Shown here: positions 31,679 to 37,437 of the stretch, one piece after another
Layout: each line of letters starts with the position of its first letter
How positions within the stretch are numbered: position 1 is the first letter of the stretch
Source of the DNA: Dictyoglomus turgidum DSM 6724
Lineage (GTDB): Bacteria > Dictyoglomota > Dictyoglomia > Dictyoglomales > Dictyoglomaceae
Length of the DNA: 64,000 bases
Reading direction: 5' to 3'
Assembly (NCBI RefSeq): GCF_000021645.1
Contig: NC_011661.1
Coordinates: 1,520,723-1,584,722 of the forward strand
Program-made: the position numbers and the translations under genes
Notes under the pieces: model-generated
Database searches by the model: none
The model's input: the letters and a program-made list of their open reading frames with translations, nothing else
Told to the model about the DNA's origin: nothing

Positions 31679-33202
31679 CTATTCCCATTCAATAGTAGCA
31701 GGCGGTTTATCAGTAAGATCATACACTACCCTGTTTATACCTATTATCTCATTAGTTATTCTTCGTGCTATCTTACCAAGGATATCATAGGGTACCTCAA
31801 CAAAGTTTGCAGTCATCCCATCTTCACTTTTCACAATCCTAATGGCAATAACATATTCATAAGATCTAAAATCTCCCTTTACACCAACTGTTTTTATAGG
31901 GAGCAATACTGCAAAGGACTGCCATATTTCATCATATTTATCCCATTTCTTAATCTCTTCCATCAGAATTCGATCAGCTCTTCTCAAAAGCTCTAACTTA
32001 TCTTCTGTGACTTCACCAAGAATTCTCACTGCAAGCCCTGGTCCTGGAAAAGGTTGCCTTCTTATGATATCCTTAGGAATTCCTAAAATTTCTGCAATTT
32101 TCCTTACTTCATCTTTAAACAGATATCTAAAGGGCTCAATCAACTCAAAACCGAGTTCTTCAGGGAGCCCGCCTACATTATGATGAGTCTTTATCTTAGC
32201 AGCCATTCCAGTGTTAGATGCAGCACTTTCTATAACATCAGGATAAAGAGTACCTTGGGCAAGAAATTTAAAAGGTCCCCTTTTTCTTGCCTCTTCTTTA
32301 AAAACCCCTACAAATTCGTGTCCAATAACCCTTCTCTTTTCCTCAGGATCAATAACTCCTCTTAATTTTTCAAGAAATCTCTCCCTAGCATCTATCACTA
32401 CTAAATTCACACCAAGATCCTTTAAAAATCTTGATACTTCTTCCTTTTCTCCTATTCTCAATAACCCATGGTCTACAAAAATAGCAGTTAGCTTATCTCC
32501 AATAGCCCTCTGCAATAAAACTGCAAGGGTTGTTGAATCTACTCCGCCGCTCACTGCGAGAAGCACTTTATTCTCCCCAACTTGTTCTCTTATTTCTTCT
32601 ATCTTTTCCTCCACAAATCTATCAAGATTCCAATTCTTTTCAGCCTTACAAATCTTAAAGGCAAAATTCTCAATAATTAAACGTCCCTTTTCTGTATGAG
32701 AAACCTCAGGATGAAACTGAACAGCAAAAAAGGGTTTCTTCAGAGACTGAGCAGCAGCAAGAAAACCATTCTCAGATATAGCTATATCCACAAAATCTTC
32801 AGGGAGTTTTGTCACCACATCATAATGACTCATCCAAACCTTCTCTTTCTTTTCAAGTCCTTCAAATAAAAGGGAATCTCTAACTATCTTTATCTCCGTT
32901 AAGCCAAATTCTCCCTTTTCTCCTTTTCTAACTTCTCCTCCTAAAAATTTAGCCATAAACTGAAAACCAAAACAAATTCCCAAAATAGGTATATCGCCTT
33001 TAAAAATCTCGTAATCTATCTCCAAATCACTATCATAAACACTATTAGGTCCACCAGAAAGTACTATTCCTTTTACCTCTTTTTCCTTTAAAAAAGAGTA
33101 TTTCACATTAGGAGAATAAATCTCTGAATATACCCCTATCTCTCTAAATCTCCTTGCAATGAGCTGAGTATATTGAGAACCAAAATCAACAACTGCAATC
33201 AT
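31679..33202 (-). CDS. guaA: GMP synthase (glutamine-hydrolysing)
   Basis: GuaA turns XMP into GMP with glutamine and ATP. The 507 residues contain the class I glutamine amidotransferase domain with catalytic Cys77 in LGICFGFQ and the [10 protein letters not shown] His/Glu pair near 166, then the ATP-pyrophosphatase P-loop AVSGGVDST near 218, and the C-terminal dimerisation domain ending [10 protein letters not shown]. Its ATG overlaps the larC stop by four bases, an unusual pairing. Confidence 0.97.
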
Positions 33203-34368
33203 ACTTCCAACTCCCTTTCTATTATCTTTTCAATTTCCCCAATTACATCTTTCAAAGGAATATTTTCTCTTTCTGCAATACTTTTACAATCCTCATATTC
33301 AGGGTAAGCTTTTTTAATGCCGTTGATATTTGCTACTTTTATTCTCACTTTACCCCATTTTGTCTCAATCTCTCTTATCTCTCTTTGCATAATTCTTTTA
33401 TCCACATAAATTCTTCTTACCCCAAGGGTCGTTGTTTCTCCAAATATGACTTCTAAAAGTTTTTCCTCCATAGCTAAAGGAGCTATAACCGTAAGAAGAA
33501 CCCCAGGTCTTCCTTTTTTCATATAAACAGGAGTTAAGAAAACATCCAAGGCTCCCTCTTTGAAAAGTTTTTCTGTCAAATAGCCAAAAATTTGTGGATT
33601 CATATCATCTATGTTAGTCTCAAGTACCACATTCTTTTCTTCAATAACTTTCTCTATCAATTCCCCTTCATATACTCTAAGAAGATTGGGAAAAGGAAAA
33701 TCTTTTTTTCCACAACCGTAACCAACTTTATCTACTTTTATAGGAGGAAGAATTTTTACAAACTCAGCTATAGTAGATATAATTGCAGCTCCAGTAGGAG
33801 TAACAAGTTCTCCCTCTCTTCCATCCCTATACACAGGAACCCCTCTTAGTATTTCCAAAGTTGCAGGCGCTGGAACAGGTATAGTCCCATGGGAAGCATT
33901 GACAAATCCTCCGCCAAGGGGGAGAGGAGAAGAATAAATTTTATCAACCTTTAACATATCTAATAAAATTAGTGAACCTAACACGTCAATAACTGTATCC
34001 AAAGCCCCTACTTCATGAAAATGCACTTCATTTATAGATGTATTATGAATTTTAGCTTCCGCTTCAGCGATTTTATAAAAAACCTCTTTTGCCCTGTTCT
34101 TTATGTTTTCGGATAGTTCACTTTTATCTACAATCTCCAAAAGATCCTCAAGATGCCTATGAGAATGATGATCTTCTATAATTATTTCCACATCTGTTCC
34201 CCATATATGATTTTTTTGTTTCTTAGATATCTCAATTTTATATCCCTCAACAGGAATCTTATTAAGTTCATTTTTCCATTCTTCCAAATTGACTCCAAGA
34301 TCTAATAGAGCCCCAAGAATCATATCTCCACTTATACCTGAGAAACAATCAAAATATAATACTTTCAT
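33199..34368 (-). CDS. larC: nickel-pincer cofactor nickel insertase LarC
   Basis: LarC is a CTP-dependent cyclometallase that inserts nickel into the pyridinium dithioacid cofactor of lactate racemase and other LarA-type enzymes. The 389 residues start with [23 protein letters not shown], then have [26 protein letters not shown] and a C-terminal domain with [19 protein letters not shown]. It is full-length; the family is often split by a programmed frameshift in Lactobacillus, but not here. It overlaps larB and guaA by four bases each. LarA and LarE are not in the window. Confidence 0.93.
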
Positions 34369-35123
34369 TTTCTATTTTCCTCCACCATTAAATTTATCAT
34401 ATTTGCTAAATAACCTGCGGAGAATCCGTTGTCTATATTGACCACTGCAATCCCAGGAACACAGCTATTTAACATACTCAGCAAAGCAGAAAGCCCATTA
34501 AAATTAGCTCCGTATCCTACACTTGTGGGAACAGCAATTATAGGTTTTGCTATAAGTCCTCCTACCACTGAAGGTAAAGCCCCTTCCATACCAGCAACTA
34601 CTATTACCACATTAGAAGAATAAAATTTATCAAGTTGATCTATTAACCTGTGCAAACCTGCAACTCCCACATCATATATCCTTTCCACATTGCTTCCCAT
34701 AATTTCTGCGGTTATAGCTGCCTCTTCAGCAACAGGCAGATCCGCAGTCCCTGCACAAGCAACCACAACTTTACCCTTTTTCTTTATGTCTTCCCTTAAA
34801 ACAGCTATTATCCTGGCTTTATCAAAATAGATTGCATCAGGAATATATTCTTTTAGCTTTTCATAAAGCTCAAAACTTGCCCTTGTTGCTATAACCCTTT
34901 TATTAATCTTTAACAAATTTAGCATTATATTTATTACCTGGTCTGTAGTCTTTCCTTGAGAAAAAATTACTTCTGGGAAACCCTTTATTACTCCCCTCAA
35001 ATGATCAACTTTGGCATATCCAAGGTCTTCATAAGGTAAAATTCTGAGTTCGTCGATTGCCTTCTCTATAGAGACTTCCCCCGTTTTTACTTTTTCAAGT
35101 ATTTCTCTTAGTTTTTCTCTCAT
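34365..35123 (-). CDS. larB: nickel-pincer cofactor biosynthesis protein LarB
   Basis: LarB carboxylates and hydrolyses nicotinic acid adenine dinucleotide, the first step of the Ni-pincer cofactor. The C-terminal half is PurE-like: [48 protein letters not shown] and VPTSVGYG. The N-terminal part has [14 protein letters not shown]. The ATG at 35123 (252 residues) is preceded nine bases upstream by AAAGGAG; an in-frame TTG at 35141 overlaps that site and is rejected. It heads larB-larC-guaA-LUD. Confidence 0.93.
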
Positions 35124-35162
35124 TCTTGATGCTCCTTTCAACTAAATTTAACTTAACTATTT

Positions 35163-35168
35163 ATTATA
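35163..35168 (-). promoter_or_regulatory. -10 box for the larB operon
   Basis: A perfect TATAAT on the minus strand, 39 bases before the larB ATG. No good -35 lies at 16-18 bases; a TTGAAA is present but only 12 bases away. Low to moderate support. Confidence 0.4.
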
Positions 35169-35180
35169 CAAAACAAAATT

Positions 35181-35209
35181 TTTCAAGAGTAAATTTAAAG
35201 TGGTAAAAT
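35181..35209 (+). promoter_or_regulatory. putative promoter for the 43-residue cysteine protein
   Basis: TTTCAA (35181-35186), a 17-base spacer and TAAAAT (35204-35209) lie 43 bases before the ATG of the small gene and diverge from the larB -10. Confidence 0.4.
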
Positions 35210-35252
35210 ATTATTGTCAAAGAGAAATGAAGCTAAAGGGGGTGTGTCCATT

Positions 35253-35384
35253 ATGACGGAAGAAAGAAAATGTAAAAATTGCAAATTCTTTCAGCCCAAC
35301 CCTAGTGACCCTTCTCGTGGTACTTGCTTCGGACTCCCTGTAAAAGCTGAGAATAGTTGTCCTCAGTTCGTTGCTAAATCTTAA
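35253..35384 (+). CDS. 43-residue four-cysteine protein, probable small HiPIP-like Fe-S protein
   Basis: An ATG preceded nine bases upstream by AAAGGGGGTG opens a 43-codon frame. Cysteines are at 7, 10, 25 and 36: CKNCKFFQP, then DPSRGTCFGLPV, then SCPQFVAKS. This spacing and the CxxCxFF and CPxF elements resemble the small subunits of glycyl radical enzymes (the BssB/BssC and HpdC type), which carry a high-potential-like [4Fe-4S] cluster. No glycyl radical enzyme is near, so it is probably a free-standing relative. Its end overlaps the convergent 687-residue gene by 11 bases. Confidence 0.75.
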   Translation: MTEERKCKNCKFFQPNPSDPSRGTCFGLPVKAENSCPQFVAKS

Positions 35385-37437
35385 AAACTACTTTCTCCAT
35401 ATATACTTCGGAGTTTTTTATCAATTCTTTTATGAAATTTGGTGAAAGTAAATATAAAATAATTGTATAAGGTCGATAATTTAAATATTTAAGAGATTTT
35501 TCAAACTGAAGGAGGCTCCTTAAAAGAACGGCAAAAAGAAATAGAAGCTTATATTCCAAAAGCTTTCTCTCCTCAAAAAGATAGCTGGGAGCCTCCTCCT
35601 TTTTAGATTTTATCTCATCTATTATCTTTCTGCGCCTTTCAACTAAATCTTTTAAAACCTTCAGAAAACTCTCGGGAAAGTATAAATTCTTAAACTCTCC
35701 ATTGTATCCCTTATTTCTCAATTTATTAAGCAACTTATAATCCCTTTCTGAAAGCTCTATAAACCCTTTTTCCCAAAGAATTACCTTTGCAAGACGAAAA
35801 TACTCTCCTGCTTCAAGCCCCTTTATGATCTCAATTATCTTCTCTATCTCTTCAACTTTTCTTCTCCAAACTTGAGAAAACTCTTCTGGGGTAATTTCTG
35901 TCTTCTCAAAATATAGCCTTAAAAATTTAGGTAATCTAAATACAAAATCCCCAAGAAGTTTTAAATTATCAAGCAAGTTTAAACTCACCCTTAAAAGATG
36001 ACTCTCAGGCACCACTTTAATCTCCTTCTTTAGCTCTCCCAAGAAATAATCCACCATAGGAGCATATTTAGAACCTTCCTCGGGCACAGCAAGAACCCTT
36101 GGTACCCTCCTCATCTCAGCCATAAAAGGCCCTGCTTTTCCAATAAGAGCAAAACCATTGGGAAATTTTTTGGATAATATAAGAGAAGCCAAAAATTCTC
36201 TTGCACTTTGGATGTTTTTTGTATTTGTAATAGTCTCTGAAGAGCAATGAGGAGAAAATAGTTTAATAGAAGCTTCATGATCCATATTCCTAATTTCTAT
36301 ATTACATCTAGTCAAAATATTTCTTCCATGTTGATTTATGAAAACCTCCAAAAAATATGGGGGTTGAAAGACGTTGTTTTTTATATGAAATCTTTTTAGA
36401 GGTAATTTTGCTTTGTTTAATGCTGTATTATACGCCCTTGCAAAAGCTTCTGTATTTTTTAAGAGTAGATCAAAAAAGTAGTAAAAATCCTTATTCTCAT
36501 AATCACAAAAATTCTTGATCTTGAGCATTTCTGAAGTCTTATTAAAGGATATATTAACGCCATCAAAAAGATCTTTTATAATGAAACTTGCCATTTTTAT
36601 CTGAAAATCCGCTATGGTAACTTCTTCTTTTAATATTTTAATGGCATATGTTTTTATTTTCTTAGCCCTCTCAATTACTTCTTTTCTTTTCTCCCTATCT
36701 TTTATCTGTCTCAAAATTCCTCTAACTCCAGTTATGAATAATTTCTCCATATGTCTTTTCAATTCTTCATTTATATATATGCTGGAAAGACTTATCTCTT
36801 CAGAATACTTAGGCACAACCCCATACCACCCTAAGGATTTGGAAAAAAGATAATAAATCTCTGCTTTTGGATTTCTCAAAAAATACCTCTTCAAAGGCTC
36901 CTTATTGGCAACAAAGCCAGTTCCGCTTATCCTTGAATAATTATCGTAATCCCAGGAAAAACCTAAATCCTCTAATGCCTTAACAAAATCCTTATCTTTT
37001 TCCAAGCTTTCTTTATAATCTTTCCATGAATTCGCAATCCATGTAAGTTTAAAATTTAAATCCTTATACTCAGAAGGCTCTATGGGAACACCATAAAAAA
37101 GTCCATAAGTTATATCCTGATTTATATAAACTGCCCCTGTAAGCTTTCCTGCGTAATCTTCAGTTATTACATACCTATTGCCATCATCATAAAAGGAGGT
37201 AAGACGATGATCACTAGTGCCAAGTTTTTCATCATGTAAAAAAGGCTTAAAAGGAAATTCCTTTAATTTGAAATAAAGGACCAAATCCGTGAGAATTGCG
37301 TCCCAGAGTAGATTTTGGTCTCCTTTATATACCTCATCTATATTTTCCCTTTTTAATGTAGAAATTAAATCATCACATTTATACTTTAAGGTATAAAAAT
37401 TCTCGTCTTCACGAATTACTTTACCACAAGATATCAT
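35374..37437 (-). CDS. hypothetical protein of 687 residues
   Basis: I do not recognise this large protein. It starts three bases after the gyrB stop, so it is the last gene of dnaN-S4-recF-dciA-gyrB. There is no signal peptide or convincing membrane span. The N-terminal third is mixed alpha/beta and aromatic-rich (for example FPFKPFLHDEKLGTSDHRL near 62-80), the middle has LTRCNIEIRNMDHEASIKL near 380, and the C-terminal 250 residues look helical and charged. No Walker, helicase or nuclease motif is seen. A DNA-linked role is only suggested by position. Confidence 0.8.
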   Translation of the reverse strand: MISCGKVIREDENFYTLKYKCDDLISTLKRENIDEVYKGDQNLLWDAILTDLVLYFKLKEFPFKPFLHDEKLGTSDHRLTSFYDDGNRYVITEDYAGKLTGAVYINQDITYGLFYGVPIEPSEYKDLNFKLTWIANSWKDYKESLEKDKDFVKALEDLGFSWDYDNYSRISGTGFVANKEPLKRYFLRNPKAEIYYLFSKSLGWYGVVPKYSEEISLSSIYINEELKRHMEKLFITGVRGILRQIKDREKRKEVIERAKKIKTYAIKILKEEVTIADFQIKMASFIIKDLFDGVNISFNKTSEMLKIKNFCDYENKDFYYFFDLLLKNTEAFARAYNTALNKAKLPLKRFHIKNNVFQPPYFLEVFINQHGRNILTRCNIEIRNMDHEASIKLFSPHCSSETITNTKNIQSAREFLASLILSKKFPNGFALIGKAGPFMAEMRRVPRVLAVPEEGSKYAPMVDYFLGELKKEIKVVPESHLLRVSLNLLDNLKLLGDFVFRLPKFLRLYFEKTEITPEEFSQVWRRKVEEIEKIIEIIKGLEAGEYFRLAKVILWEKGFIELSERDYKLLNKLRNKGYNGEFKNLYFPESFLKVLKDLVERRRKIIDEIKSKKEEAPSYLFEERKLLEYKLLFLFAVLLRSLLQFEKSLKYLNYRPYTIILYLLSPNFIKELIKNSEVYMEKVVFKI

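Follow-up and report, generated by a model that had tools for sequence, protein, structure and literature searches.

Does a reading frame of only 43 codons in the genome of Dictyoglomus turgidum DSM 6724 encode a genuine protein, and, if so, what would its four Cys residues hold in a cell of this kind? Dictyoglomus is an extreme thermophile and a strict anaerobe that lives by fermentation. The frame lies in a stretch of 64,000 nucleotides (hereafter, the window) of a genome that consists of a single contig of 1,855,560 bases. In the initial annotation it was regarded as an overlooked gene, preceded by a ribosome binding site and resembling the BssB/BssC/HpdC-type small subunits of glycyl radical enzymes (GREs).

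The gene, its start codon and its conservation

The product of the frame is MTEERKCKNCKFFQPNPSDPSRGTCFGLPVKAENSCPQFVAKS, a protein of 43 residues terminated by a TAA stop codon and containing Cys residues at positions 7, 10, 25, and 36. The ribosome binding site claimed ahead of the frame is present (Table 1). An alternative in-frame TTG codon at 35214 would extend the product to 56 residues. Since this extension is not conserved, with an open frame of only 42–43 residues in the genomes of the second genus (n = 3), comparison of the frames indicates that ATG 35253 is the likely start codon. The arrangement of the Cys residues is rare in this DNA: the pattern C-x2-C-x(8–18)-C-x(8–16)-C is found in one of the 296 window frames of 30–100 residues, namely the small gene alone, and, in 60 first-order Markov copies made from the window, occurs 0.03 times on average (maximum 1).

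The small gene is found as a single copy in each of the seven Dictyoglomota genomes examined, which belong to two genera and include two assemblies that are only 72% and 86% complete; in G003 the gene runs off the end of a contig, so that its first two codons are missing. The six other members share 81–98% identity with the window protein, and 29 of the 43 positions, including all four Cys residues, are invariant in the seven members. The pN/pS ratio ranges from 0.016 to 0.30 in all 21 pairs. This conservation establishes the 43-codon frame as a real gene, as first proposed, and the gene is under strong purifying selection. The loss of Cys residues or the lack of a homologue in close genomes had been named as observations that would speak against it, and neither was encountered in the seven genomes. 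Since the last codons lie within the overlap with a convergent gene (Table 1), K42 and S43 should not be taken as evidence of constraint on the protein, and the conservation of these codons may be partly due to the overlap, whose length was measured in the five genomes other than G005 and G003.

Table 1. Coordinates of the small gene and of the elements surrounding it in the window.
Feature	Position	Strand	Basis or remark
43-aa four-cysteine HiPIP-like protein gene	35253..35384	+	Translation, conservation, Pfam, HiPIP profile, seeded model
Ribosome binding site AAAGGGGGTG	35235..35244	+	8 bases ahead of ATG 35253
-10-like hexamer TAAAAT, TG directly before	35204..35209	+	Putative; agrees with the consensus
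Possible -35 hexamer TTTTCA, spacer 18	35180..35185	+	Weak
11-base tail-to-tail overlap, small gene / convergent 687-aa gene	35374..35384		Length identical in all five genomes measured
Convergent 687-aa gene, last of the recF-dciA-gyrB run	35374..37437	-	Conserved neighbour, no recognised family

Outside the phylum, no relative with the four-Cys pattern was found in 379 genomes. A profile of the family (A1) searched against 386 genomes retrieved six genomes that do not belong to the Dictyoglomota at E ≤ 0.01 (best 3.6e-4), and none of the six loci has a four-Cys open frame. A mixed profile (A3) retrieved nine non-Dictyoglomota genomes at E ≤ 0.02, of which two correspond to the HPAD-gamma genes that had served as seeds, one to a leader-bearing HiPIP (L045), two to small Cys proteins without a Pfam family (L043 and L044), and four to matches that are chance-like or ambiguous. 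Two patterns of eight residues, by which distant relatives would be missed, retrieved three loci from a genome-contig collection, two of them labelled Dictyoglomus or Dictyoglomaceae. The small protein has no match in viral contigs, nor any match better than E = 4 among phages and plasmids. Separately, a phage protein family of 55 positions whose function is not known (phrog_15529) matches residues 5–26 of the small protein with E = 7.1e-4.

Promoter-like element and genomic neighbourhood

In six of the seven genomes, those with upstream DNA available, a TG-extended -10-like element, GTGnTAnAATAnTAT, can be aligned; four promoter-like sites were found in a stretch of 501 bases for which 1.3 were expected. 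Downstream, the convergent gene of 687 residues has no match in Pfam (E ≤ 0.001), PADLOC, or the PDB (E ≤ 1), and all of its NCBIfam matches are sub-threshold. Upstream, the divergent neighbour is larB in the three genomes of the first genus with upstream DNA (the window, L002, and L004), and guaA in the two genomes of the second genus that were inspected (G004 and G006). The order in G004 is recF-dciA-gyrB-687-aa-type gene-small gene-guaA-LUD-DUF554, otherwise as in the window, the genes of the second genus being named by their likeness to those of the window. In the window, larB and larC (33199–35141, minus strand) lie between the small gene and guaA, and both are absent from the corresponding stretch of the second genus (L063), so that two genes have been either gained or lost at this fixed position. 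A link of the small gene to these nickel-pincer genes is not favoured, as guaA replaces larB beside it in the second genus.

The small gene thus has a fixed place and, judging from the aligned element, probably a promoter of its own, and its position suggests no partner: no redox enzyme linked to it was found in the neighbourhood. Likewise, no structured RNA was detected with Rfam at the gathering threshold between 34000 and 37000, no terminator in a scan of 35100–35600, and no PADLOC (defence) match for the small protein.

Sequence resemblance to HiPIP-fold families

The window protein has four Pfam matches, all of them under the curated cut-offs: HPIP_like (PF18524), the best one, with E = 4.5e-4 and a score of 20.4 against a cut-off of 28.1; BssB_TutG (PF18512), with E = 5.4e-4 and 20.3 against 25.6; HIPIP (PF01355), with E = 9.9e-4 and 19.8 bits against 22 (17.5–18.8 bits in the genome scan); and BssC_TutF (PF08201), with E = 0.31 and 11.5 against 25. 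The NCBIfam model NF033716 gives 18.3 against a cut-off of 50. The first three families are each matched by all seven members at E ≤ 1, and none of ten shuffles that kept the Cys residues in place matched any Pfam family at this threshold. When the HIPIP profile was run on 251 whole genomes, the small gene was matched in all seven Dictyoglomota (E 0.0035–0.0087), and matches elsewhere were restricted to seven of the 244 other genomes, four of them over the cut-off. The HPIP_like profile, run on 386 genomes, matched at E ≤ 0.01 four of the seven Dictyoglomota, missing all three genomes of the second genus, together with three of the 379 genomes outside the phylum, two of these over the cut-off.

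The small protein presents four Cys residues in the C-x2-C-xn-C-xn-C order of the HiPIP-fold superfamily, a motif given in PMC12358834. Moreover, Phe39, three residues after the fourth Cys (Cys4), is invariant and agrees with the rule, given in PMC7462912, that HiPIPs carry an aromatic residue at Cys4+2 or Cys4+3. The residue before Cys4 is Ser in six members and Cys in one, the Trp that occupies this place in HiPIPs being absent. Only six residues precede Cys1, which leaves no room for a leader, and on inspection there is no Tat leader.

Which branch of the superfamily stands closest was approached in several ways. The best sequence match in the PDB is BSS-beta, over residues 4–26 of the small protein. 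Alignment of profiles with hhalign gave a probability of 84.5 over 39 columns, with the four Cys residues in register, against four HiPIPs, and of 39.5 over 12 columns against two HPAD-gamma C-terminal domains; since the latter profile holds only two sequences and is shallower, this comparison leans towards HiPIPs without deciding the matter. Among 3000 Cys-fixed shuffles of the window protein, the score with the four HiPIPs was reached by 0, 49, 76, and 11, the score with the two HPAD-gamma domains by 55 and 189, and the scores with L043 and L044 by 41 and 1, respectively. For a protein of the second genus, the corresponding numbers of 3000 were 1, 10, 109, and 7 for the HiPIPs, 226 and 298 for HPAD-gamma, and 12 and 14 for L043 and L044. 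Taken together, the sequence comparisons do not decide between GRE subunits and HiPIPs. The likeness to BssB/HpdC-type subunits that was first remarked upon is supported by the sub-cut-off Pfam matches, by BSS-beta as the best PDB match, and by the matches of the seeded model described below; HiPIPs proper are resembled as well.

Predicted structure

AlphaFold2, when provided with the seven relatives alone, produced a model with a pLDDT of 63, for which Foldseek gave no match at E ≤ 0.001 and VIA-align no row at Z ≥ 2; BSS-beta was ranked first by Foldseek with E = 0.43. Seeding with four HiPIP sequences raised the pLDDT to 85.1 in the best model and 82.1 in the second, the other three of the five remaining at 50–56. 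Ranks 1–9 of the 22 Foldseek matches of the seeded model are occupied by BSS-beta (two), HiPIPs (six, one of which was assigned from its entry title alone), and MASS-beta (one), with TMq values of 0.59–0.77, probabilities of 0.77–1.00, and E-values of 0.02–0.93. In VIA-align, 15 of the 16 listed rows have the HiPIP fold, with Z 2.8–4.1, and one is unrelated (Z 2.1). The best rows, HPAD-gamma (residues 39–86; Z 4.1) and BSS-beta and a HiPIP (both Z 4.0), are effectively tied. All these VIA-align Z values lie below 5 and all Foldseek E-values of the seeded model are at least 0.02, and the absence of a family from VIA-align excludes nothing. Since the good model depends on the four HiPIP seeds, the evidence for the fold is partly circular. 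With this proviso, the modelling makes a HiPIP fold likely for the small protein.

Comparison with known systems

The fold and the type of cluster are already known, and the small protein can be compared with several of the families that share them. BSS-beta (BssB/TutG; PDB 4pkf and 9pzj; PF18512) has in common with it the elements R-x-C-x2-C-K and DP-x-RG-x-C and the spacing from Cys1 to Cys3, and is the top Foldseek match of both models, weak for the unseeded one and with E = 0.02 for the seeded one. However, BSS-beta has about 80 residues compared with 43, the sequence match ends just after Cys3, and BSS-beta accompanies a PFL-type enzyme, of which there is none above the cut-off in the Dictyoglomota genomes. 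Functionally, BSS-beta controls conformation and the formation of the thiyl radical (PMC12358834, PMC12590467). Cluster-free BSS-beta is prone to proteolysis (PMC12590467), so that in this subunit a very small fold is kept stable by the cluster.

HiPIPs align with the small protein over nearly its full length, in the four Cys residues and in the aromatic residue after Cys4, and those matched by the seeded model come from R. marinus and purple bacteria. In contrast with them, the small protein lacks a leader, has its short segment before Cys1, shows neither Trp nor Tyr before Cys4, and stays under the Pfam cut-off. True HiPIPs are described in PMC7462912 as electron carriers exported by means of a Tat leader, and the authors of this paper give PioC, with 54 residues, 21 of them before Cys1, as the smallest HiPIP known.

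Among the GRE subunits, the C-terminal domain of HPAD-gamma (HPIP_like) provides the best Pfam match and the best, though tied, VIA-align row, and MASS-gamma and BSS-gamma are similarly small. These last two are about 60 residues long and are supported by a large subunit, HiPIP-type GRE subunits carry their [4Fe–4S] cluster far from the active site, and BSS-gamma and HPAD-gamma aid solubility, according to PMC12358834 and PMC12590467. Genes of the HPAD-gamma type adjoin a GRE gene (L020 and L021, where the GRE was judged from the frames and the small genes by Pfam), whereas the Dictyoglomus gene does not. The HPAD-gamma-like gene of L021 (1483–1746, minus strand), which lies beside the apparent GRE, has an N-terminal domain without the Cys ligands seen in L020 and represents a natural one-cluster version.

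Two short proteins without a Pfam match, retrieved with the mixed profile, have a CxxC-x-[FY]-[FY] motif followed by two single Cys residues, like the small protein; their spacing and tails differ from it, as do those of phrog_15529. The frame in L043 (1447–1734, plus strand; CRSCRYYTPEGRRGGQCQQLGAPV...C), which resembles cyanobacterial proteins, could be a further free-standing HiPIP-like family. The one in L044 (96–476, plus strand; HACLNCRFYDPGAAGECREEQAELV...RCEWF) is a small Cys-rich protein that lacks an NCBIfam match too, and a frame near it is presumably elongation factor P-like.

Proposed role and alternatives

That the small protein is a HiPIP-fold [4Fe–4S] protein, this part taken on its own, appears quite highly probable. 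The complete reading, a cytosolic, leaderless, minimal HiPIP-fold [4Fe–4S] protein that acts as an accessory on a larger enzyme, is moderately probable. Cys7, Cys10, Cys25, and Cys36 would bind a single [4Fe–4S] cluster, and the protein, presumably located in the cytosol, would sit on a putative partner enzyme belonging to the core metabolism of the Dictyoglomota, by analogy with BSS-gamma, MASS-gamma, and HPAD-gamma on their enzymes. The cluster would chiefly stiffen the fold, and one-electron transfer would also be possible.

The HiPIP sequence and fold evidence, namely the genome scan, the hhalign comparison, and the seeded model, applies equally to a free-standing soluble carrier, either a mini-HiPIP or a ferredoxin-like [4Fe–4S] shuttle that would serve a fermenting cell in its cytosol. 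The function of true HiPIPs in carrying electrons (PMC7462912) and the conserved promoter-like element of the gene, as found in many small carriers, are in agreement with this role. However, the small protein has neither the Trp ahead of Cys4 nor most of the N-terminal part of HiPIPs, which renders a couple of +50 to +500 mV unlikely; COX1 had no match in any of the seven Dictyoglomota genomes; and the D. turgidum genome paper assigns electron transfer to other ferredoxin-like genes (PMC5167688). These two absences in the protein, together with those of a leader and of COX1, favour the accessory over a high-potential carrier, and we regard the soluble carrier as rather unlikely.

A small zinc-binding protein, of a knuckle or treble-clef-like type and perhaps an adaptor for nucleic acids or proteins, is improbable. 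Many small CxxC proteins are indeed zinc sites, and three of the seven members have a zinc-finger match at E ≤ 1, the best one with 0.075. Moreover, L044, a protein of no known family, scores nearly like the best HiPIP under shuffling, so that short CxxC proteins can look alike. Nonetheless, the second Cys pair is C-x10-C, unlike the CxxC found there in most zinc ribbons, and the four families that the window protein matches in Pfam are, without exception, those of HiPIPs or of GRE subunits. The zinc controls of the shuffle test, the NrdR and NrdD zinc segments, were reached by 140 and 1607 of the 3000 shuffles of the window protein, and by 156 and 2536 of those of the second genus.

The remaining alternative concerns the GREs of the phylum. 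Gly_radical (PF01228) was matched in none of nine genomes, six of which are Dictyoglomota, and PFL (PF02901) reached its cut-off in none of the seven Dictyoglomota, the sub-threshold matches in five of them falling inside NrdD, the class III ribonucleotide reductase. NrdD is itself a glycyl radical enzyme and occurs in many organisms in which it is not known to need a small subunit of this kind. It was found in six of the seven Dictyoglomota, once as a fragment, and the sole negative genome is the draft that is 72% complete. The initial statement that no GRE lies nearby consequently stands for the surroundings of the small gene, whose neighbours are larB/larC, guaA, and gyrB, but NrdD is encoded elsewhere, nrdD being located about 158 kb from the small gene in G000. 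As a separate observation, NrdD of one genome of the second genus (L034/L036; G004:C6:89584-92139) is interrupted by about 260 additional residues in frame, ending ...FITGN before TPFTNL, and this insert, from its motif, looks like an intein.

An unrecognised accessory subunit of NrdD, the only GRE found in these genomes, would fit the lack of PFL-type matches above the cut-off, the near-complete presence of NrdD, and the view of a 2025 paper that annotation may have missed additional accessory subunits of GREs (PMC12590467), but it is very improbable, considering that the two genes are unlinked, that NrdD is also present in six of 14 control genomes, that NrdD commonly does without such a subunit, and that co-occurrence over seven close genomes carries no information. 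An accessory on a larger enzyme is therefore favoured over the soluble carrier, the zinc protein, and the NrdD subunit.

Significance for the Dictyoglomota

In the open-licence literature, no free-standing, leaderless HiPIP-like form of 43 residues was found described in strict anaerobes, and no paper was found that pairs Dictyoglomus with HiPIP. If the cluster is held, the small protein would be shorter than PioC, called the smallest known HiPIP in PMC7462912, and would show how little protein a cubane cluster needs in an extreme thermophile. A bolder form of the proposal, distinctly unlikely at present, is that this phylum-wide protein of 43 residues is both the smallest natural HiPIP-fold [4Fe–4S] protein and the cluster subunit of an enzyme for which none is known, e.g., the class III ribonucleotide reductase, in which case HiPIP-fold subunits would be a general enzyme add-on and not peculiar to hydrocarbon and arylacetate GREs. 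A small protein that holds the cluster would, in addition, separate the HiPIP-type cluster fold from its usual settings, phototrophic or respiratory electron transfer and PFL-type GREs, and would suggest that all known Dictyoglomota keep a novel enzyme or redox step.
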